Shown here: positions 54,595 through 64,000 of the stretch, in pieces
How positions within the stretch are numbered: the first letter of the stretch is position 1
Layout of the letters: every line of letters starts with the position of its first letter
Assembly: GCF_014236855.1 (NCBI RefSeq)
Contig: NZ_CP051261.1
Coordinates: forward strand, 4,340,001-4,404,000
Source: Xanthomonas sp. SI
Lineage (GTDB): Bacteria; Pseudomonadota; Gammaproteobacteria; Xanthomonadales; Xanthomonadaceae
Direction of reading: 5' to 3'
Length of the DNA stretch: 64,000 nucleotides
Notes under the pieces: model-generated
The model's input: the letters and a program-made list of their open reading frames with translations, nothing else
Databases searched by the model: none
What the model was told of the DNA's origin: nothing
Made by a program: the position numbers and the translations under genes

Positions 54595-54644
54595 GCGGAC
54601 ACGGTGTCCGCGAACGTGTCCGCGGACACACGGACAGCCGTCCG
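54595..54644 (+). promoter_or_regulatory. Cluster of GGACA/TGTCC palindromes, possible enhancer sites
   Basis: GCGGACACGGTGTCCGC (54595-54611), GTGTCCGCGGACAC (54616-54629, perfect) and CGGAC-AGCC-GTCCG (54631-54644) share the TGTCC/GGACA half-site. The first two are ~20 bases apart. They lie ~50-100 bases upstream of the sigma-54 -12 element, the normal place for binding of an NtrC-family activator. Confidence 0.65.
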
Positions 54645-54680: not shown

Positions 54681-54697
54681 TTGGCACGCGACGTGCT
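54681..54697 (+). promoter_or_regulatory. Sigma-54-type promoter of the ABC locus
   Basis: TTGGCACGCGACGTGCT matches the sigma-54 consensus (TGGCAC-n5-TTGC): GG at 54683-54684 and GC at 54695-54696 have the required 10-base spacing, and only one core base differs. A transcript start near 54708 would precede the gene at 54735. Confidence 0.75.
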
Positions 54698-54734: not shown

Positions 54735-56006
54735 ATGATCCGCGACACTTCCGCCCAGGACCAGGTTCTCGCCCGCCCCCGCTCCGCCTCCGCCTGGCGC
54801 CGCTGGCTCTGGCCCGCACTGATCGCGCTGGCGGTGCTGCTCGGCATAGCCTTCGCCGCGCGCGGCTGGATCGCCGGCAGCCGCTCGTTCGACGCGCAAC
54901 GCGTGCGCATCGCCACGGTCAGCCGCGGCGACCTGGTCCGCGACATCTCCGCCGACGGGCGCCTGATCGCCGCCAACAGCCCCACCCTGTACGCGATCTC
55001 CGGCGGCACCGTGAGCCTGAAGGTGGTCGCCGGCGACGTGGTCAAGCAGGGCCAGGAACTGGCCGAGATCGACAGCCCCGAACTGCGCAGCAAGCTCGCC
55101 CAGGAAGAAGCCACGCTGGCCGGCCAGGAAGCGGAAGCCGGCCGCGCCGACCTGGATGCGGTGCTGGCGCGGGCCAATGCCAGCAAGCTGGTCGACCAGG
55201 CGCAGATCGAGCGGCAGGCGGCCAGCCGCGATCTGGAGCGCTACCAGCGCGGCTACGACGGCGGCGCGGTGCCGCAGGTGGAACTGGCCAAGGCGCAGGA
55301 CTCGCTGAAGAAAGCCGACATCGCGATGAGCCATGCGCAAAAGGATTCCGGCCTGCAGACCCAGGGCGCCAGCCTGGATGCGCGCAACAAGCGCCTGCTC
55401 GCCGAGCGCCAGCGCGCGGTGGTGACCGAGGTGAAGCGCCAGGTGGATCTGCTCACCCTGCGCTCGCCGTTCGACGGCCAGGTCGGCCAGGTGCAGGTGT
55501 CGCAGCACACCAACGTCGCCGCCAATGCGCCGGTGCTGAGCGTGGTCGACCTGTCCAAGTTCGAACTGGAGATCAAGGTGCCGGAGAGCTTCGCCCGCGA
55601 CCTGGCGATCGGCATGCCGGCGCAGCTGACCAGCGGTGCCGGCGAACCGTTCGCCGGCGCGATCTCGGCGGTATCGCCGGAAGTGGTCAACGGCGAGGTC
55701 AACGCGCGCATCCGCTTCACCGACAAGCAGCCGCCGGGCCTGCGCCAGAGCCAGCGCATGAGCGCGCGGGTGCTGCTGGATACCCGCAAGAACGTGCTCA
55801 AGCTCGAGCGCGGTCCGTTCGTCGAACAATCCGGCGGCCGCTACGCCTACGTGATGGACGGCAACTCGGCGATCCGCCGCCCGGTGGAGCTGGGCGTCAC
55901 CAGCCTCGGCGAAGTCGAGGTGCGTTCGGGCCTGCAACCGGGCGACCGCGTCGTGGTCTCCGGCAGCGACCTGTTCGGCGAGGCGCCGCAGGTGACGGTG
56001 CATTGA
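54735..56006 (+). CDS. Periplasmic membrane-fusion (HlyD/MacA-like) protein of the ABC system
   Basis: A 423-residue adaptor protein from ATG 54735. A single membrane helix spans ~22-41. Then come a barrel-sandwich/lipoyl region ('GGTVSLKVVAGDVVKQGQELAEIDSPEL'), a coiled-coil hairpin (~115-235), its second lipoyl half ('LRSPFDGQVGQVQVSQHTNV') and a beta-barrel domain ('GLQPGDRVVVSG' near the end). It links the inner-membrane ABC complex to an outer-membrane partner, as MacA does with TolC. It is the first gene of the array and the only such adaptor here. Confidence 0.88.
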   Translation: MIRDTSAQDQVLARPRSASAWRRWLWPALIALAVLLGIAFAARGWIAGSRSFDAQRVRIATVSRGDLVRDISADGRLIAANSPTLYAISGGTVSLKVVAGDVVKQGQELAEIDSPELRSKLAQEEATLAGQEAEAGRADLDAVLARANASKLVDQAQIERQAASRDLERYQRGYDGGAVPQVELAKAQDSLKKADIAMSHAQKDSGLQTQGASLDARNKRLLAERQRAVVTEVKRQVDLLTLRSPFDGQVGQVQVSQHTNVAANAPVLSVVDLSKFELEIKVPESFARDLAIGMPAQLTSGAGEPFAGAISAVSPEVVNGEVNARIRFTDKQPPGLRQSQRMSARVLLDTRKNVLKLERGPFVEQSGGRYAYVMDGNSAIRRPVELGVTSLGEVEVRSGLQPGDRVVVSGSDLFGEAPQVTVH

Positions 56007-56009
56007 AGG

Positions 56010-56121
56010 CTGGGATTGGGGATTCGGGATTGGGGATTCGTCTTCCCCTGCCGTTTTCCTTCCCCGCTTGCTGATTCCGAATCCCGATATTCCCAATCCC
56101 AATCCCCAATCCCCGCTCCAC
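56010..56121. repeat. Inverted GGGATT/AATCCC heptamer arrays inside the operon
   Basis: Plus-strand GGGATTnG heptamers (56010-56041) face AATCCC-type copies (56085-56121) across a ~43-base spacer. The transcript could fold into a long imperfect hairpin between the adaptor and ATPase genes. This may set the ratio of the two or stabilise the mRNA. It matches the heptamer type at 25857 and 26613. Confidence 0.75.
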
Positions 56122-56138
56122 CGCCAAAGGACTACGTC

Positions 56139-56855
56139 ATGCTCGAAATGCGCTCCGTCTCCAAGGTCTTCCGTACCGAACAGGTCGAGACGCACGCGTT
56201 GCGTTCGCTGGATCTGCATGTGCGCGAAGGCGAATTCGTCGCCGTCACCGGGCCGTCCGGCTCCGGCAAGACCACCTTCCTCAACATCGCCGGCCTGCTG
56301 GAGACCTTCACCAGCGGCCAGTACCTGCTCGACGGCCAGGACGTCAGCAACCTCAACGACGACGCGCGCTCGCGCATGCGCAACCAGAAGATCGGCTTCA
56401 TCTTCCAGGGCTTCAACCTGATCCCCGATCTCAACCTGTTCGACAACGTCGACGTGCCGCTGCGCTACCGCGGCATGGCCGCGGCCGAGCGCAAGCAGCG
56501 CATCGAGGACGCGCTGGGCCGGGTCGGGCTGGGCTCGCGGATGAAGCACTACCCGTCCGAGCTGTCCGGCGGCCAGCAACAGCGCGCGGCGATCGCGCGC
56601 GCGCTGGCCGGTAGCCCGCGCCTGCTGCTGGCCGACGAACCGACCGGCAACCTGGACTCGCAGATGGCGCGCGGGGTGATGGAACTGCTGGAAGAGATCA
56701 ACGCGCAGGGCTCGACCATCGTCATGGTCACCCACGATCCGGAACTGGCCGCGCGCGCTCAGCGCAACGTGCACATCGTCGACGGCCAGGCCACCGACCT
56801 GCAGCGCGAACCGGTGCTGGGGCATACCGGCCACGGCGCCGCGGCCAACGGCTGA
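56139..56855 (+). CDS. ABC transporter ATPase (MacB/LolD type)
   Basis: A 238-residue ATPase; ATG 56139 follows AAAGGA. Walker A GPSGSGKT, signature 'LSGGQQQR', Walker B 'LLLADEPT' and 'TGNLDS', and the H-loop in 'MVTHDPE' are present. The sequence is typical of LolD/MacB-type partners of FtsX-like permeases. It is the only ATPase gene beside at least six permease genes, so it probably powers all of them. Confidence 0.92.
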   Translation: MLEMRSVSKVFRTEQVETHALRSLDLHVREGEFVAVTGPSGSGKTTFLNIAGLLETFTSGQYLLDGQDVSNLNDDARSRMRNQKIGFIFQGFNLIPDLNLFDNVDVPLRYRGMAAAERKQRIEDALGRVGLGSRMKHYPSELSGGQQQRAAIARALAGSPRLLLADEPTGNLDSQMARGVMELLEEINAQGSTIVMVTHDPELAARAQRNVHIVDGQATDLQREPVLGHTGHGAAANG

Positions 56856-56884
56856 CGGCGCGGCGACGGCAGGCGAAGAACGGC

Positions 56885-58207
56885 ATGTTCGGCTACTACC
56901 TTCAGCTTGCGCTACGCAGCCTGCGCCGCAGTCCGGTGTTGAGCGCGTTGATGGTGCTATCCATCGCCGTCGGCATCGGCGCGGCGATGACCACGCTGAC
57001 GGTGATGCGGCTGCTGTCCGGCGATCCGTTGCCCGGGCGCAGCCAGCGGATCTTCTACCCGCAGCTCGATCCGCGCCCTGCCGGCAGCACCGGCCGGCAG
57101 CCGTTCGACAAGCTCGACTATCCCAGCGCGATGGACCTGTGGAAGACCGGGCGCGCCGATCGCCAGGCAATCGTGGCCGAGAGCCAGATCAAGCTGCGCG
57201 CGCCCGAACGCGACGGCCCGGCATTCATGGCGCAGATGCTGTCCACGCAAGCCGATTTCTTTCCGATGTTCCAGGTGCCGTTCGCCTACGGCAGCGGCTG
57301 GCGTGCGCGGGACGACCAGGACCGCGCCCGGGTGGCAGTGATTTCGGCCGATCTCAACAACAAATTGTTCGAGGGCCGCAACAGCGTCGGACAAAGCCTG
57401 CTGGTACGCGGCAATGCGGTGCGCATCGTCGGCGTGCTGGCGCCCTGGCGGCCGTCGCCGCAGTTCTACACGCTGGCCGGCGGCAGCTTTTCCCACGGCG
57501 ATACCGGCAGCTTCTATGGCAAGCCGCAGGACGTGTTCGCGCCGCTGTCCACCAGCCTGGAGATCAACGACGGCCACATCGAGCCGTGGACCTGCTTCGG
57601 CACGCCGGCGCAGCCGCTGGACCTGCGCATTGCACCCTGCGTGTGGGTGCAGTTGTGGGTGCAACTGGATACGCCAGCCAAGGTGGCCGCCTACCGGCGC
57701 CTGCTGGCCGATTACGCCGCCCAGCAGCAGGCGGCCGGACGCATCGGCCGCACCGACACGGCGCGCCTGCTGTCCTTGCCGCAGTGGCTGGACCACAACC
57801 GGGTCGTGCCTGGCGACGTGCGCCTGCAGAGCTGGCTGGCGGTGGCGTTTCTGGGCCTGTGCCTGTTCAACAGCGTCGGCCTGCTGCTGGCCAAGTTCCT
57901 GCGCCGCGGCGGCGAAATCGGCGTGCGCCGCGCGCTGGGCGCGTCCAGGCGCGCGATCTTCGCCCAGTGCCTGACCGAAGCCAGCGTCATCGGCTTGATC
58001 GGCGGCATCGGCGGATGGCTGCTGACCCTGCTGGGGCTGTGGAGCGTGCGCCAGCAGCCGGCCGCCTACGCCGATCTGGCGCGCCTGGACCTGTTGGCAT
58101 TCGCCGGCACCTTCGTGCTGGCCGTCGGCTGCAGCGTGGCAGCCGGCCTGTTCCCGGCCTTGCGGGCAAGCCGGATCGCGCCGGCGCTGCAGCTCAAGAC
58201 CCTGTGA
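56885..58207 (+). CDS. FtsX-like ABC permease, type A copy 1
   Basis: A 440-residue permease. It opens 'MFGYYLQLALRSLRRSPVL' and has one N-terminal membrane helix, a large MacB-type periplasmic domain (~60-300) and three C-terminal helices with 'GEIGVRRALGASRRAIFAQC' (FtsX loop). Type A proteins share the MFGYY start and 432-440 length with genes at 59452 and 62014. It probably forms a dimer with the next type B protein and moves a periplasmic substrate or drives the adaptor. Confidence 0.88.
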   Translation: MFGYYLQLALRSLRRSPVLSALMVLSIAVGIGAAMTTLTVMRLLSGDPLPGRSQRIFYPQLDPRPAGSTGRQPFDKLDYPSAMDLWKTGRADRQAIVAESQIKLRAPERDGPAFMAQMLSTQADFFPMFQVPFAYGSGWRARDDQDRARVAVISADLNNKLFEGRNSVGQSLLVRGNAVRIVGVLAPWRPSPQFYTLAGGSFSHGDTGSFYGKPQDVFAPLSTSLEINDGHIEPWTCFGTPAQPLDLRIAPCVWVQLWVQLDTPAKVAAYRRLLADYAAQQQAAGRIGRTDTARLLSLPQWLDHNRVVPGDVRLQSWLAVAFLGLCLFNSVGLLLAKFLRRGGEIGVRRALGASRRAIFAQCLTEASVIGLIGGIGGWLLTLLGLWSVRQQPAAYADLARLDLLAFAGTFVLAVGCSVAAGLFPALRASRIAPALQLKTL

Positions 58208-58220
58208 CCGGGACCCCTCC

Positions 58221-59438
58221 ATGATGCAGATCGCCCCCATCCTGCGCGCCCTGTCGCGCCACCGCATCGCCGCGACGCTGATCGCGCTCGAAGTCGCGCT
58301 GGCCTGCGCCGTGCTGTGCAACGCGTTCTTCCTGATCGGCAACCGGCTGGATCTGATGCATCTGGACAGCGGCGTCGACGAAGCCGCGCTGGGGCTGGTG
58401 TCCCTGTCCGGTTGCGACGGCTGCAACAACGCCGATCTCAATGCGCGCGTGCTCGATGCCATGCGCCGCATCCCCGGGGTACGCGCGGCAGGCACCATCA
58501 ACACGGTCCCGTTCGCTCCGGCTGCAGGCAACAGCGGCATTTGCCTGGACCAGGCCTGCACCGAGGTCGGCGGCGTACCGCATTTCTATACGGCCAGCCC
58601 GGGCGCCGTGGCCGCCCTGGGCCTCAAGCCGGACAGCGGCCGCGCGTTCGACGACGCCGACTACCAGCCGTTCGAGCACTTCGCCCCGGACACGGCCGAC
58701 GTGTGGATCACCCGCGCCCTGGCCGACCACCTGTGGCATGGCCAGGATCCGCTGGGCCGCGAATTCTGGGCCGGCGGCCACTACCGCGTGGTCGGCACGC
58801 TGCCGCACCTGGCCCGGCCCGATCCCGGCCGCAGCGAGGATGGCGCGATCGGCAGCGACTGGTCGGTGCTCATCCCGGTGCGCGAGGCGTCGCAATCCGG
58901 CATCTACGTGCTGCGCGCCGATCGGCGCGAGCTGCCGCGCGTGATCGAACAGGCGCGCACCGCGGTGGCGCGCGCGGCGCCCGACGCGGTCCTGGACGGC
59001 GAGTACAGCAAGCCGTTGAACGAACTGCGCCAGCGCTACTTCCAGAGCGATCGGGCCATGGCCAAGCTGCTGCTGGCGGTCATCGCCGCGATGCTGCTGG
59101 TGACCGCGCTGGGCATCGTCGGCCTGGCCAGTTTCTGGGTGCAGCAACGCACCCGGCAGATCGGCATCCGGCGTGCGCTCGGCGCCACCCGCCGCGACAT
59201 CCTGCAGCACTTCCACACCGAGAACCTGCTCATCGTCGGTGCCGGCGTGGTGCTGGGCATGCTGCTGGCCTACGCCGGCAACGTCCTGCTGATGCGCTTC
59301 TTCGAACTGGACCGACTGCCCGCGACCTACCTGCCGGCCGGTGCCGCGCTGCTGTGCGCGCTCGGCCAGCTCGCCGTCCTCGGCCCCGCGCTGCGCGCCG
59401 CCGCCGTCCCACCCGCCACCGCCACCCGTAGCGCCTGA
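58221..59438 (+). CDS. FtsX-like ABC permease, type B copy 1
   Basis: A 405-residue permease beginning 'MMQIAPILRALSRHRIAATLIALEVALACAV'. It has the FtsX/MacB topology: one helix, a periplasmic domain, then three helices with 'ASFWVQQRTRQIGIRRALGATRRDI'. It lies 13 bases after type A copy 1. Its last 82 bases (to 59442 including the spacer) are identical to the end of type B copy 2. Start is the first of two adjacent ATG codons. Confidence 0.86.
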   Translation: MMQIAPILRALSRHRIAATLIALEVALACAVLCNAFFLIGNRLDLMHLDSGVDEAALGLVSLSGCDGCNNADLNARVLDAMRRIPGVRAAGTINTVPFAPAAGNSGICLDQACTEVGGVPHFYTASPGAVAALGLKPDSGRAFDDADYQPFEHFAPDTADVWITRALADHLWHGQDPLGREFWAGGHYRVVGTLPHLARPDPGRSEDGAIGSDWSVLIPVREASQSGIYVLRADRRELPRVIEQARTAVARAAPDAVLDGEYSKPLNELRQRYFQSDRAMAKLLLAVIAAMLLVTALGIVGLASFWVQQRTRQIGIRRALGATRRDILQHFHTENLLIVGAGVVLGMLLAYAGNVLLMRFFELDRLPATYLPAGAALLCALGQLAVLGPALRAAAVPPATATRSA

Positions 59439-59442
59439 CCCG
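59361..59442 (+). repeat. 82-base direct repeat, copy 1
   Basis: The end of type B copy 1 and its spacer (59361-59442) is base-for-base identical to 61923-62004, 2562 bases away. Confidence 0.9.
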
Positions 59443-59451
59443 AGACCCACG

Positions 59452-60762
59452 ATGTTCGGTTATTACCTCCACCTCGCCCTGCGCAGCTTCGGCCGCAACA
59501 AGATCCTCACCACGCTGATGGTGCTGGCCGTGGCGCTGGGCATCGGCGCCTCGATGACCATGCTGACGGTGCTGCATACGCTGTCCGGCGATCCGCTGCC
59601 CGGCCGCAGCGCCACGCTGTTCCATCCGCAACTGGACCCGCGTCCGCGCGACCTGCCGGGTGCCGACCAGGAGCCGCCCGACGAACTGACCTGGCAGGAC
59701 GCGAATGCGCTGTACCGGCTGCACGCTGCGCCGGCGCAGACCATGACCAGCGCGAACTGGCTGCCGGTCCGCCAGACCCTGCCGAATAGCCCCTTGCGCA
59801 TGCTCACCACCCGCGCCGCGACCGCCGACCTGTTCGCGATGTTCGGCATGCGCTTCCTCTACGGCAGCGGCTGGAGCCGTGGCGACGATGCGCAGCGCGC
59901 GCAGGTGGTGGTGCTGACCCGCACGCTCAACGACACCTTGTTCGGCGGCGCCGACAGCGTCGGCAAGACCTTGACCATCGCCACCCGCCCGTTTCGGGTG
60001 ATCGGGGTGATCGACACCTGGGATGCGCAGCCGCGTTTCTACGATCTCAATTCGGGCGCGTACAAGGCGCCAGAAGCGCTGTACGTGCCGTTCGAGACCT
60101 GGCTGGACCTGCCCCAGGACTACGGCTATGGGCCAATGCAGTGCTGGGGCCGGGACCAGGAAGCGGGCCTGCACAATCCCAAGAGCGCGCAATGCACCTG
60201 GGTGCAGTATTGGGTGCAACTGCGCACGCCGGCGCAGGTCCAGCGTTACCGCACCGCGCTGGACGACTACAGCGCGCAGCAACGTCAGTTGGGCCGGTTC
60301 GAACGCGCACCCAACACACGCCTGCGCGATCTGCTCGACTGGCTCGACTACAAGCGGGTGGTGCCGGCCACCGTGCGCATGCAGAGTTGGATCGGCTTCG
60401 GCGTGCTGCTGGTGTGCCTGCTCAATGCGGTCGGCCTGCTGGTCGCCAAGTTCATGCGCAAGGCCGCTGAGATCGGCGTGCGCCGCGCGCTGGGCGCCAG
60501 CCGCCGCGCGGTGTTCCTGCAATGCCTGGCAGAATCCGGGCTGATCGGCTGCCTCGGCGGACTGCTCGGCATCCCGCTGACCTGGATCGGCCTGTGGCTG
60601 GTGCGTCAGCAACCGGTGGCCTACGCCCAACAGGCGCATGCCGACCCATCGCTGCTTGCGCTCGCGCTGGCCGTGGCGGTGCTGTCGGCCCTGGCGGCCG
60701 GCGTGTGGCCCGCATGGCGCGCTTCGCGCATCGCTCCCGCCCTGCAGGTGAAATCGCTATGA
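59452..60762 (+). CDS. FtsX-like ABC permease, type A copy 2
   Basis: A 436-residue permease that begins 'MFGYYLHLALRSFGRNKILTTLMVLAVALGIGASMTMLTVL'; ATG 59452. The C-terminal FtsX core ('AEIGVRRALGASRRAVFLQC') is present. The periplasmic domain differs from copy 1 more than the membrane parts do. It overlaps the next gene by ATGA. Confidence 0.86.
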   Translation: MFGYYLHLALRSFGRNKILTTLMVLAVALGIGASMTMLTVLHTLSGDPLPGRSATLFHPQLDPRPRDLPGADQEPPDELTWQDANALYRLHAAPAQTMTSANWLPVRQTLPNSPLRMLTTRAATADLFAMFGMRFLYGSGWSRGDDAQRAQVVVLTRTLNDTLFGGADSVGKTLTIATRPFRVIGVIDTWDAQPRFYDLNSGAYKAPEALYVPFETWLDLPQDYGYGPMQCWGRDQEAGLHNPKSAQCTWVQYWVQLRTPAQVQRYRTALDDYSAQQRQLGRFERAPNTRLRDLLDWLDYKRVVPATVRMQSWIGFGVLLVCLLNAVGLLVAKFMRKAAEIGVRRALGASRRAVFLQCLAESGLIGCLGGLLGIPLTWIGLWLVRQQPVAYAQQAHADPSLLALALAVAVLSALAAGVWPAWRASRIAPALQVKSL

Positions 60763-62000
60763 CCGCGCTGAGACACGCACGCCCCATTCTTTCCGCGCTG
60801 GGCAGCCATCGTGCCGCGGTGGTGTTGATGGTCTTGCAGATCGCCCTGACCCTGGCGGTGCTGTGCAACCTGGTGTTCATCATCGCGCGCACCTACCAGC
60901 GGGTGGACACGCCGACCGGGGTGATGGAGCAGGACATCGGCCTGATCCAGAGCATCTCCGTGATCGGCGAGCAAGACAGCAAGAGCAGCGTCGGGCGCAG
61001 CCTGGATGTGTTGCAAGCGGTGCCCGGCGTGGAAGCGGCCGCCTTTGGCGCACCGCCGCTGTGGAATCCGAACCGGGTGCAACTGTTCCGGGAAGCGCAG
61101 GCGACGCAACCGGCGGCGCACGCGACGCTGTTCTCCGGCAGCCAGGGCCTGAACCGCGCCCTGGGCATCCGCATCGTCGCCGGCCGCGACCTGCACGACG
61201 CCGAGCTGCCGGCTGCCGCCGAGATGTTCGCGGAGAGCAACCATGGCGAGCGGCAGCTGCCGACGCTGATCACCCCGTCGCTGGCCGCCAAGTTGTTTCC
61301 TGGCGTTTCGCCGCTGGGGCAGAAGATCTACACCACGATGTGGAACCAGGCGGTACGGCTGGATGTCGTTGGGGTGATGGCACCGCTGCGTGGCGTGATC
61401 GCCGGCCACGACGACGATGCAGACGCGCTGCTGACCGAACTGCGCGTCGGCGCCGAAGGCTGGGGCGGCGGCTATCTGATCCGCAGCAAACCGGGGCAAC
61501 TGCCGCAGGTCCTGCAACGCGCGGCGGCGGCGATGCAGCATGCCAACCCGACCTATGTGCAGCACCAGGTCGCCACCATGCAGGAACTGCGCGCGGACTA
61601 TTTCAGGAGCGACAGCGCAGTGGCGCGCATGCTGCTGGCGATCATCGTGATCCTGCTCACCGTCACCGCGTTGGGCATCGGCGGGCTGGCCAGTTTCTGG
61701 GTGCAGCAGCGCACCCGGCAGATCGGTATCCGCCGCGCCATCGGTGCCACCCGCCGCGACATCATGGGGTACGTCCAGCTGGAAAACTTTCTGATCGTCG
61801 GCGGCGGCGCCGTGTTGGGCGCCGTCCTCGCCTACGTCATGAACCAATGGCTGATGCAACGCTTCGAACTGGAGCGGCTGTCCTCGCCCACGGTGCTCAC
61901 CGGCATCGTGGCGGTATGGCTGCTCGGCCAGCTCGCCGTCCTCGGCCCCGCGCTGCGCGCCGCCGCCGTCCCACCCGCCACCGCCACCCGTAGCGCCTGA
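60759..62000 (+). CDS. FtsX-like ABC permease, type B copy 2
   Basis: A 413-residue permease starting 'MTALRHARPILSALGSHRAAVVLMVLQIALTLAV'. It overlaps the upstream type A gene by ATGA, which decides the start. Its FtsX core 'ASFWVQQRTRQIGIRRAIGATRRDI' is near-identical to copy 1. Its end shares an 82-base identical DNA stretch with copy 1, evidence of recent gene conversion or duplication. Confidence 0.86.
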   Translation: MTALRHARPILSALGSHRAAVVLMVLQIALTLAVLCNLVFIIARTYQRVDTPTGVMEQDIGLIQSISVIGEQDSKSSVGRSLDVLQAVPGVEAAAFGAPPLWNPNRVQLFREAQATQPAAHATLFSGSQGLNRALGIRIVAGRDLHDAELPAAAEMFAESNHGERQLPTLITPSLAAKLFPGVSPLGQKIYTTMWNQAVRLDVVGVMAPLRGVIAGHDDDADALLTELRVGAEGWGGGYLIRSKPGQLPQVLQRAAAAMQHANPTYVQHQVATMQELRADYFRSDSAVARMLLAIIVILLTVTALGIGGLASFWVQQRTRQIGIRRAIGATRRDIMGYVQLENFLIVGGGAVLGAVLAYVMNQWLMQRFELERLSSPTVLTGIVAVWLLGQLAVLGPALRAAAVPPATATRSA

Positions 62001-62004
62001 CCCG
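61923..62004 (+). repeat. 82-base direct repeat, copy 2
   Basis: Identical to 59361-59442; it spans the last codons of type B copy 2 and the first four bases of its spacer. Confidence 0.9.
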
Positions 62005-62013
62005 GAGCCACCC

Positions 62014-63312
62014 ATGTTCGGCTATTACTTCCGCCTCGCCTTGCGCAGCTTCCGCCGCAACAAGGTCCTCACCGCGCTGATGGTGCTGGCCATCGCGCTT
62101 GGCATCGGCGCCAGCATGACCACGCTGACCGTGTTCTACGTGCTCTCCGGCGACCCGATCCCGCAGAAGAGCGATCGGTTGTTCTACGTGCAGGTCGATG
62201 CGCAGCCGAAAGCCGGCTTCCAGCCCGGCGAGGAGCCGGACTTCCAGAACACGCGCTACGACGCCGAAACGCTGCTGCGCGAGAAACGCGCCAAGCGGCA
62301 GGCGATCATGACCGGCGGGTCGGCGGCGATCGAGCCGCTCAGGAGCGGGCTGAAACCGTTCAAGTCGGAAGTACGGCTTACCTCAGCGGATTTCTTCCCG
62401 ATGTTCGACACGCCGTTCCTGTACGGCCACGGCTGGACCGGTACGGAAGACGAACGCCACGAGCGGGTGGCGGTCATCAGCAAGAAGCTCAACGAGAAGC
62501 TGTACGACGGCGCCAACAGCGTCGGCCGCGAACTGCGCATGGACCAGAACACGTTCCGCATCATCGGCGTGCTCGACACCTGGGCCCCCAATCCGCGCTT
62601 CTACGACATCACCAACACTTACGGTTCGGACGAACAGGCCTACCTGCCGTTCTCAGTCGCGATGGACCTGAAGATAGACCGCAACGGCAACATGAACTGC
62701 TTCGGCGACAGCAACGGCGATCAGACCTCGCTCAATGCGCCTTGCACCTGGATGCAGTACTGGGCGGAATTGGAGAGCCCGGCGCAGGCCGCCGATTACA
62801 AGGCCTACCTAGAGAACTACTCCAACCAGCAGCGCGCCGCCGGCCGCTTCCAGCGTCCGAACAACGTGCGCCTGCGCAACGTGATGCAGTGGCTGGACCA
62901 CAACGAAGTGGTGCCGGGCGACGTGCGCCTGCAGCTGTGGCTGGCGATGGGTTTTCTTTTGGTATGCCTGCTCAATACCGTCGGTCTGCTGCTGGCCAAG
63001 TTCCTGCGCCGCAGCGGCGAGATCGGCGTGCGCCGCGCGCTGGGCGCCTCGCGCCGTGCGATCTTCGCGCAGTGTCTGGTCGAAGCCGGCACCATCGGCC
63101 TGGCCGGCGGCATCGCCGGTCTCGGCCTGGCCGTGCTCGGCCTGTGGGCCGTGCGCCAGCAGCCCTCCAGCTACGCCAAGCTCGCCCATATGGACCCTAC
63201 GATGCTGGCACTGACCTTCGCCCTGGCCCTGGCCGCCAGTCTGCTGGCCGGCCTGCTGCCGGCCTGGCGCGCGATCCAGGTGGCGCCGGCGCTGCAGCTC
63301 AAATCGTCCTGA
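62014..63312 (+). CDS. FtsX-like ABC permease, type A copy 3
   Basis: A 432-residue permease with the same 'MFGYYFRLALRSFRRNKVLTALMVLAIALGIGASMTTL' opening and 'GEIGVRRALGASRRAIFAQC' core. It is closer to copy 1 in the C-terminal core and distinct in the periplasmic domain. It begins 13 bases after type B copy 2, the same spacing as between B copy 1 and A copy 2. Confidence 0.86.
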   Translation: MFGYYFRLALRSFRRNKVLTALMVLAIALGIGASMTTLTVFYVLSGDPIPQKSDRLFYVQVDAQPKAGFQPGEEPDFQNTRYDAETLLREKRAKRQAIMTGGSAAIEPLRSGLKPFKSEVRLTSADFFPMFDTPFLYGHGWTGTEDERHERVAVISKKLNEKLYDGANSVGRELRMDQNTFRIIGVLDTWAPNPRFYDITNTYGSDEQAYLPFSVAMDLKIDRNGNMNCFGDSNGDQTSLNAPCTWMQYWAELESPAQAADYKAYLENYSNQQRAAGRFQRPNNVRLRNVMQWLDHNEVVPGDVRLQLWLAMGFLLVCLLNTVGLLLAKFLRRSGEIGVRRALGASRRAIFAQCLVEAGTIGLAGGIAGLGLAVLGLWAVRQQPSSYAKLAHMDPTMLALTFALALAASLLAGLLPAWRAIQVAPALQLKSS

Positions 63313-63376
63313 TCATCGCCCCCGCCGCACGGCGGCGGGCAGACCGCCAACGAAGGTCCCTCACAAGGTTATCGCC

Positions 63377-64000
63377 ATGGACATCCGCCCCATCCTTTCC
63401 ACCCTGCGCCGGCACAAGACCGCCGCCGCGCTGATCGTGCTCGAGATCGCGCTGGCCTGCGCGATCGTGTGCAATGCGCTGTTCCTGATCGGCAACCGCA
63501 TCGAGACCCTGCACCGGCCCAGCGGCATCGCCGAGTCGGAACTGGTGACGGTCTCGCTCGGCGGCATCGGCCAGCAGGTCAATGCGGCCGCGCGCACCCG
63601 CGAGGATCTGGCCGCGTTGCGCGCCGTGCCGGGCGTGCGCAACGCGACCGTGCTCAACCAGGTGCCGTTCGTGCACTACTCCTCGAACACCAGCCTGTCG
63701 CTGACCCCGGACCAGGAGCGGCCCACCCTCAACGCGGCGCAGTACATGGCCGAGGAAGGCACGCTGCAGACCCTGGGGCTGCAGTTGGTGGGCGGGCGCG
63801 ACTTCACGCCCGACGAATACCTCGATCTGGAAATCGCGAAAACCGACAGGGACGCGCAGAAAAAAGGTACCGCCATCATTCTCAATCGCGCCACCGCGGA
63901 GAAGATGTTCCCCGGGCAGAATGCCCTCGGCAAGACCCTCTATATCGGACAGATCCCGGTGCGCGTGGTCGGCATCGTCGACACGCTGGCGCGGCCGGCC
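63377..64000 (+). CDS. FtsX-like ABC permease, type B copy 3 (cut by window edge)
   Basis: Open from ATG 63377 to the last base (208 codons). It starts 'MDIRPILSTLRRHKTAAALIVLEIALACAIVCNALFLIGNR', clearly type B, and continues through the first periplasmic half. The C-terminal three-helix part is beyond the window. It is 64 bases after type A copy 3, a longer gap than in the other pairs. The array may continue, perhaps with a sensor kinase and sigma-54 activator. Confidence 0.82.
   Translation, partial: MDIRPILSTLRRHKTAAALIVLEIALACAIVCNALFLIGNRIETLHRPSGIAESELVTVSLGGIGQQVNAAARTREDLAALRAVPGVRNATVLNQVPFVHYSSNTSLSLTPDQERPTLNAAQYMAEEGTLQTLGLQLVGGRDFTPDEYLDLEIAKTDRDAQKKGTAIILNRATAEKMFPGQNALGKTLYIGQIPVRVVGIVDTLARPA

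Follow-up and report, generated by a model that had tools for sequence, protein, structure and literature searches.

A conserved, modular array of a probable MacB-type exporter in Xanthomonas sp. SI with one ATPase gene, one adaptor gene and several permease gene pairs

Genes at the locus

The window analysed here is a 64,000-nucleotide stretch of Xanthomonas sp. SI (NZ_CP051261.1, positions 4340001-4404000 of a single 5.25-Mb contig), and its right end holds a series of permease genes of two types, A and B, behind one periplasmic adaptor gene and one ATP-binding cassette (ABC) ATPase gene. An earlier note on this DNA had described six permeases in strict A-B-A-B-A-B order after the ATPase, an order that we confirmed up to the window end, and had advised counting pairs past base 64000. 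In the next 19 kb downstream (L015) the array runs on, so that the whole comprises four A-B pairs and a lone B gene, flanked by adaptor and ATPase on one side and by an NtrC-type response regulator and a histidine kinase on the other. The features, in window coordinates, are as follows.

54595..54629, no strand: enhancer-like repeats of GCGGACAC/GTGTCCGC units, the last being the palindrome GTGTCCGCGGACAC at 54616-54629
54682..54697, + strand: sigma-54 -24/-12 promoter-like site (TGGCACGCGACGTGCT), one mismatch
54735..56006, + strand: predicted periplasmic adaptor, MacA/HlyD/DarC type (Pfam HlyD_3, HlyD_D23)
56139..56855, + strand: single ABC ATPase, LolD/MacB/DarD type (Pfam, NCBIfam)
56885..58207, + strand: permease A1, class 1, 440 amino acids
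58221..59438, + strand: permease B1, class 1, 405 amino acids
59452..60762, + strand: permease A2, class 2, 436 amino acids
60759..62000, + strand: permease B2, class 2, 413 amino acids, its ATG overlapping the A2 stop
62014..63312, + strand: permease A3, class 3, 432 amino acids, structure model with predicted local distance difference test (pLDDT) 91.2
63377..64000, + strand: permease B3, class 3, 408 amino acids, ending past the window at genome position 4404603, model pLDDT 93.6
L015:2653-9252, beyond the window after B3: A4, B4, lone B, response regulator, histidine kinase

Upstream of the adaptor, on the opposite strand, lies glmS, and ATP synthase genes follow further downstream of the array (both gene labels read by eye). 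The adaptor scored above the cut-off of NCBIfam RND_mfp and below those of the MacA and DarC models, while the best NCBIfam model for the ATPase was DarD (score below cut-off) and its nearest PDB chain 5xu1_A. The gap between adaptor and ATPase (56007-56138) contains repeated GGGATTCGGGATTGGGG-like units with an inverted copy, resembling an intergenic palindromic repeat; such units also occur upstream of the adaptor in locus L046.

Searches of the same genome returned four A matches, all in the array, with no other at E 1e-5, and five full B matches in the array (lone B counted) plus five weak ones, of which two lie elsewhere and three inside A genes. The earlier note had held that the idea of a shared ATPase would fail if each pair had one of its own elsewhere; what the genome holds is 24 further ATPases matching at E 1e-20, the best 53-54% identical, all in other loci and none in the array.

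Occurrence in the family

Matches to A at E 1e-60 were present in 105 of 119 genomes of the family, most having exactly one. In the genus of the source, 19 of 20 genomes had A matches (one to six each, off-array A counted), and two of four genomes in the genus of G040 had one A each. A wider search of the class with an A profile (E 1e-50) reached 6 of 229 genomes, 3 of which belong to other families. Loci from the searched genomes and the best 80 named loci among the matches listed (Xanthomonas, Stenotrophomonas, Pseudoxanthomonas and others, S. maltophilia and X. albilineans among them) were annotated with the same references; removing 12 incomplete loci and 5 duplicates (one being L100 of L049) from 119 left 102 distinct complete loci.

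The layout that the earlier note proposed to look for in other Xanthomonadaceae recurs across the family in these 102 loci. Exactly one full ATPase, sited before the pairs, was found in 101; in the remaining locus, L076 (X. phaseoli ATCC 49119), ATPase, A, regulator and kinase are fragmented. The number of pairs was one in 66 loci, two in 15, three in 6, four in 5, five in 8 and six in 1, and the single ATPase and single adaptor for several pairs, as first described, thus stayed constant from one to six pairs per locus. All 102 loci had one adaptor (split over two frames in L064), a presence that is partly by construction because loci were found via adaptor or A. No intact lone A was seen among the 102 loci, and lone B genes occurred in 21, one of them partial.

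The lone B of Xanthomonas sp. SI (L015:5236-6405) has no A before it and directly precedes the regulator. Copies 71-95% identical to it occur in eight other loci of the genus, and more distant lone B genes (28-40%) in other loci, many from Pseudoxanthomonas.

Out of 15 genomes without A, 13 had no adaptor match at E 1e-40, one had a weak match and one, the genus member G004 (L167), had a cut adaptor. In G004, glmS is followed by an adaptor that stops at residue 186, and what comes next is the final quarter of the regulator; ATPase and array pairs have disappeared together, and the kinase lies in two overlapping frames.

Two permease types

The distinction of two permease types drawn in the earlier note held: identity among array paralogues was 47-58% for A-A and 40-57% for B-B (lone B excluded) and only 18-23% for A-B, with the lone B 27-34% identical to the other B proteins. 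The FtsX domain PF02687 was above cut-off in all eight paired permeases and also in the lone B, and the MacB periplasmic core PF12704 in seven of the eight and the lone B; B2 (sequence taken from 60768) gave no PF12704 match at 0.01. Structure models of A3 and B3 comprised a helix, a large periplasmic domain, a helix, a coupling helix and two further helices (four helices besides the coupling helix), and their best matches among solved structures were MacB, the Streptococcus pneumoniae exporter 5xu1, HrtBA and LolC/E. By domain content and models, A and B belong to the MacB/FtsX superfamily (type VII ABC) and are predicted to have the four-helix MacB-type permease fold.

Within each type the membrane core is alike and the periplasmic domain divergent, as the note had observed: among the four paralogues of this genome, the coupling helix is on average 85% (A) and 89% (B) identical and the periplasmic part 41% (A) and 31% (B). 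We at first considered coupling-helix conservation as proof of a shared ATPase and rejected it, since pairs with an ATPase of their own display the same pattern; the gradient characterises the family as a whole and does not demonstrate a shared engine. That the periplasmic domain selects the substrate is plausible.

Both types matched the ADOP permease model (NCBIfam TIGR03434) in complementary halves, A1 and A2 at model positions 5-400, A3 at 5-401, B1, B2 and the lone B at 411-802 and B3 at 411-801. In samples of 60 proteins per type, every A and every B also matched the model, with positions known for the first member of each sample. A thus appears to correspond to the N-terminal and B to the C-terminal half of a two-half permease, and since the two types together cover an established permease, A-B heterodimers are likely.

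Pairs as cassettes

Trees of A and B were built from 208 non-identical pairs of 231, off-array pairs included, and structure alignments covered 60 of 206 selectable pairs. Clusters cut from the two trees agreed closely, with an adjusted Rand index of 0.70, 1.00, 0.88, 0.999, 0.99, 0.95 and 0.97 at 5, 8, 10, 12, 15, 20 and 30 clusters, against permutation maxima over the seven cluster numbers of 0.025-0.231. The class of A explained 99% of the entropy of B classes within pairs (220 pairs, off-array included); from B to the next A, 51% of class entropy was explained over 99 junctions, one of which (in L129) spans glmS and is not a true neighbourhood. Median junction lengths between aligned ends were 29 bp within a pair (n=181) and 42 bp from B to the next A (n=79). 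Junctions of both kinds are short, yet the class link is strong within pairs and much weaker from one pair to the following one, which argues that rearrangements respect pairs and that these behave as fixed cassettes. A nearest-neighbour concordance for multi-pair loci (4129/5453, 0.76, with 0.36 expected) was set aside as a measure, because it falls whenever a class is absent from one of the two genomes compared.

The earlier note had envisaged interchangeable heterodimers. The heterodimer part is favoured by the ADOP halves and the lack of intact lone A genes; interchange is not, and free mixing of A and B is ruled out by the agreement of A and B classes. Pair cohesion supports heterodimers without proving them.

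Of the 22 loci compared, 20 carried exact repeats of 24-93 bp between paralogues, and many of the longest ones map close to the coupling helix and to the B terminus; B1 and B2 of Xanthomonas sp. SI have an identical 83 bp near the gene end. Such repeats are a likely route for gain and loss of cassettes.

Pairs outside the array

Fourteen off-array pairs were examined (L036-L045, L151-L154). Within the stretches read, a like ATPase was absent at 10 of them, and L038 retains only its first 50 residues. Clear biosynthetic neighbours were present at four. The L041 pair is embedded in a nonribosomal peptide synthetase (NRPS)/polyketide synthase (PKS) operon that also includes an ABC exporter; the pair is flanked by a thioesterase-containing PKS and an NRPS gene, and about 46 kb (L041 with L147 and L148) contained no like ATPase or adaptor. 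At L040, a class III lanthionine synthetase (LanKC; L040:8388-11144) above cut-off and an ABC exporter adjoin a class 1 pair; at L151, a radical S-adenosylmethionine (SAM) enzyme and a C39 peptidase exporter lie beside the pair; and at L038 an NRPS, identified by motif, is nearby.

L036, L037 and L038 have in common an enzyme of penicillin-acylase type and an ABC exporter, a combination reminiscent of PvdQ and PvdE of pyoverdine maturation; the link to biosynthesis is suggestive for L036 and L037, and the one flank of L036 that was read held no NRPS. At L045, L153 and L154 a peptide hydroxylase model was reached below cut-off, also suggestive, and L042 and L044 have a similar layout. The position of off-array pairs near biosynthetic genes suggests peptide substrates.

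Promoter, regulator and kinase

Of 108 distinct upstream regions, 106 have a sigma-54 site with at most two mismatches ahead of the adaptor, a result reached by 0.9% of shuffles that preserve two-base blocks only. The site at 54682..54697 is one of three one-mismatch sites in the window, over which the consensus shows no overall excess (25 sites at two mismatches or fewer versus 37 expected), so the evidence for a promoter is its conservation over upstream regions. TGTCC/GGACA half sites averaged 6.3 per upstream region versus 0.66 after shuffling (108 regions), most commonly at a spacing of 2 (92 occurrences); a TGTCC-N4-GGACA palindrome gave no signal. The enhancer core GTGTCCNNGGACAC occurs at a single place in the 5.25-Mb genome, and a search with the exact palindrome revealed no further regulon members there.

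The regulator, of NtrC type, combines a receiver with sigma-54 AAA+ and Fis-type domains, and the kinase has a HATPase domain and a weak HisKA match. From promoter-like site, enhancer-like repeats and regulator domains, the array is predicted to be a sigma-54 operon under an NtrC-type regulator. Hydropathy placed two helices 2-13 residues apart, outside 19-residue windows, in 84 of 88 kinase copies (duplicates left in), and one helix only above threshold in the other four. As the kinase is almost without a periplasmic loop, it may sense via the pump; we regard such coupling as possible and lean slightly against it. A precedent is the Bce module, whose two-component system lacks a sensing domain and is proposed, in the accessible part of PMC10314905, to read the cycling of the pump.

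Comparison with known exporters

ADOP carries in one polypeptide the two halves that A and B match, whereas A and B are separate genes beside an ATPase and an adaptor. Among the matches listed, A and B scored 134-189 bits against a whole-protein cut-off of 622; scores so far below it indicate that A and B, predicted to work like ADOP, are not members. An open-access literature search on ADOP found nothing related. To our knowledge, ADOP genes are without linked ATPases, LolCDE is without an adaptor of the array's kind, and the Bce module has an OmpR-type regulator and no adaptor.

The darobactin exporter DarBCD likewise combines adaptor, ATPase and permease, and belongs to a peptide antibiotic cluster according to the available text of PMC9055067; unlike the paired genes of the array, its permease is a single gene, and the equivalog cut-offs were not reached (DarD 260.6/375, DarC 55.7/450, DarB 18.2/700 bits). 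MacAB-TolC has fold, adaptor type and periplasmic core domain in common with the array, but MacB carries its ATPase in the same chain, where the array has a separate gene. The accessible portion of PMC5985334 describes MacB as a homodimer and MacB-type permeases as homodimeric, heterodimeric and fused forms, with no array mentioned in that portion. LolCDE, a heterodimer of two four-helix permeases with a separate ATPase (available parts of PMC5985334 and PMC8277102), has the arrangement proposed for the array, though with one pair. The loop-poor, two-helix kinase of BceAB-S/R resembles that of the array, unlike its Firmicutes setting and fused permease (PMC5985334, same portion). Importers in which one ATPase (FhuC, MsiK) is shared among several permease sets appear in the accessible text of PMC10147376; those permeases lie in separate operons, whereas the array is a proposed exporter in one operon.

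Proposed mechanism

We consider it reasonably probable that the array encodes an ABC efflux system of MacB type (type VII) that is modular, has one ATPase and adaptor in common for its dedicated A-B heterodimers and acts on peptide-type substrates. Among the parts of this reading, the shared engine is held with high confidence, and for peptide-type substrates our preference is slight. One ATPase and one adaptor would serve several heterodimers, each acting as one LolCE or two-half ADOP/DarB permease with its own substrate set given by its own periplasmic domains. The pumps would work mechanically in the periplasm and hand substrates, most likely peptide-type antibiotics, via the adaptor to a TolC-type channel encoded elsewhere, so that a range of peptide antibiotics would probably be cleared from the envelope by the array. 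The operon would be switched on at the sigma-54 promoter by the regulator-kinase pair at its end, and the kinase, almost without a periplasmic part, would probably sense the membrane or working pumps in the manner of BceS. Pairs would be gained, lost and shuffled as whole cassettes. The gene parts, one-ATPase layout, pair cohesion, promoter- and enhancer-like sites and kinase topology are read from sequence; from them we infer heterodimer assembly, common use of ATPase and adaptor, peptide substrates and pump-coupled sensing.

Several observations weigh against this mechanism. Linkage alone lets adjacent genes be co-inherited; a full like ATPase (74-78%) adjoins 3 of the 14 off-array pairs (L036, L037, L152), and the gradient from variable periplasmic part to constant coupling helix is also seen in pairs owning an ATPase. 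No biosynthetic neighbour was recognised at L039, L043 and L152, where few genes were tested (three reading frames at L152). The operon showed no gene for an outer-membrane channel; 23 OEP domain matches lie at other places of the genome. Finally, in genus g15, whose 20 genomes span 4.4-6.3 Mb, 19 have a single A at E 1e-60, and the size of the array there does not track that of the genome.

As a tentative and rather doubtful extension, the ATPase and adaptor of the glmS locus might form a cell-wide chassis. Cluster-borne pairs that lack ATPase and adaptor would plug into it for self-protection or export, useful ones being kept at the chassis locus as an array of resistance cassettes, with the permeases acting as sensors for the kinase.

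Alternative explanations

An unlikely alternative is mechanical envelope maintenance of the LolCDE/FtsEX type, in which the pairs would serve lipoprotein or glycolipid transport, or power periplasmic enzymes, without expelling antibiotics. The fold class is that of LolC/LolE and FtsX, the ATPase scores well with LolD and FtsE models, and a housekeeping role would agree with the presence of A in 105 of the 119 genomes of the family; the adaptor, however, is of efflux type, pairs adjoin NRPS/PKS, lanthipeptide and radical-SAM/C39 genes, cassettes vary by species, and control is of sigma-54 type.

Somewhat less probable still is tandem duplication that is mostly redundant, with class 3 alone of importance and the other cassettes dosage copies or decaying relics. 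It would account for the 55 of 102 loci that consist of one pair without lone B, 54 of them class 3, and for the 21 loci with a B lacking its A, and the exact repeats of up to 93 bp would supply material for duplication and loss. Yet classes 1, 2, 4 and 5 are each represented in at least two genera, periplasmic parts are just 31-41% identical, and the four pairs of Xanthomonas sp. SI are all open.

That pairs recruit other ATPases of the genome while the array ATPase serves a single pair is very improbable: the 24 further ATPases and the cross-use reported for importers (PMC10147376, in part) would permit it, but none of the 24 is in the array, 101 of 102 loci keep exactly one full ATPase ahead of the pairs, and coupling helices are 85-89% identical on average (by itself not decisive).

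Significance

In the open-access literature, mostly without full text, we found no account of an array of MacB-type exporters that joins a single ATPase and a single adaptor to many fixed permease pairs, and no report on the function of this operon in Xanthomonas, Stenotrophomonas and relatives. The array is real, conserved and modular, a variant of the MacB type and probably an exporter, and as a modular pump kit it grows and shrinks between species. If the proposed mechanism is true, efflux would be modular, a new permease pair alone giving a new substrate range. As a conserved, inducible operon in Xanthomonas, Stenotrophomonas and relatives, it would offer a regulon (promoter, enhancer and regulator) and a link to peptide natural product genes.

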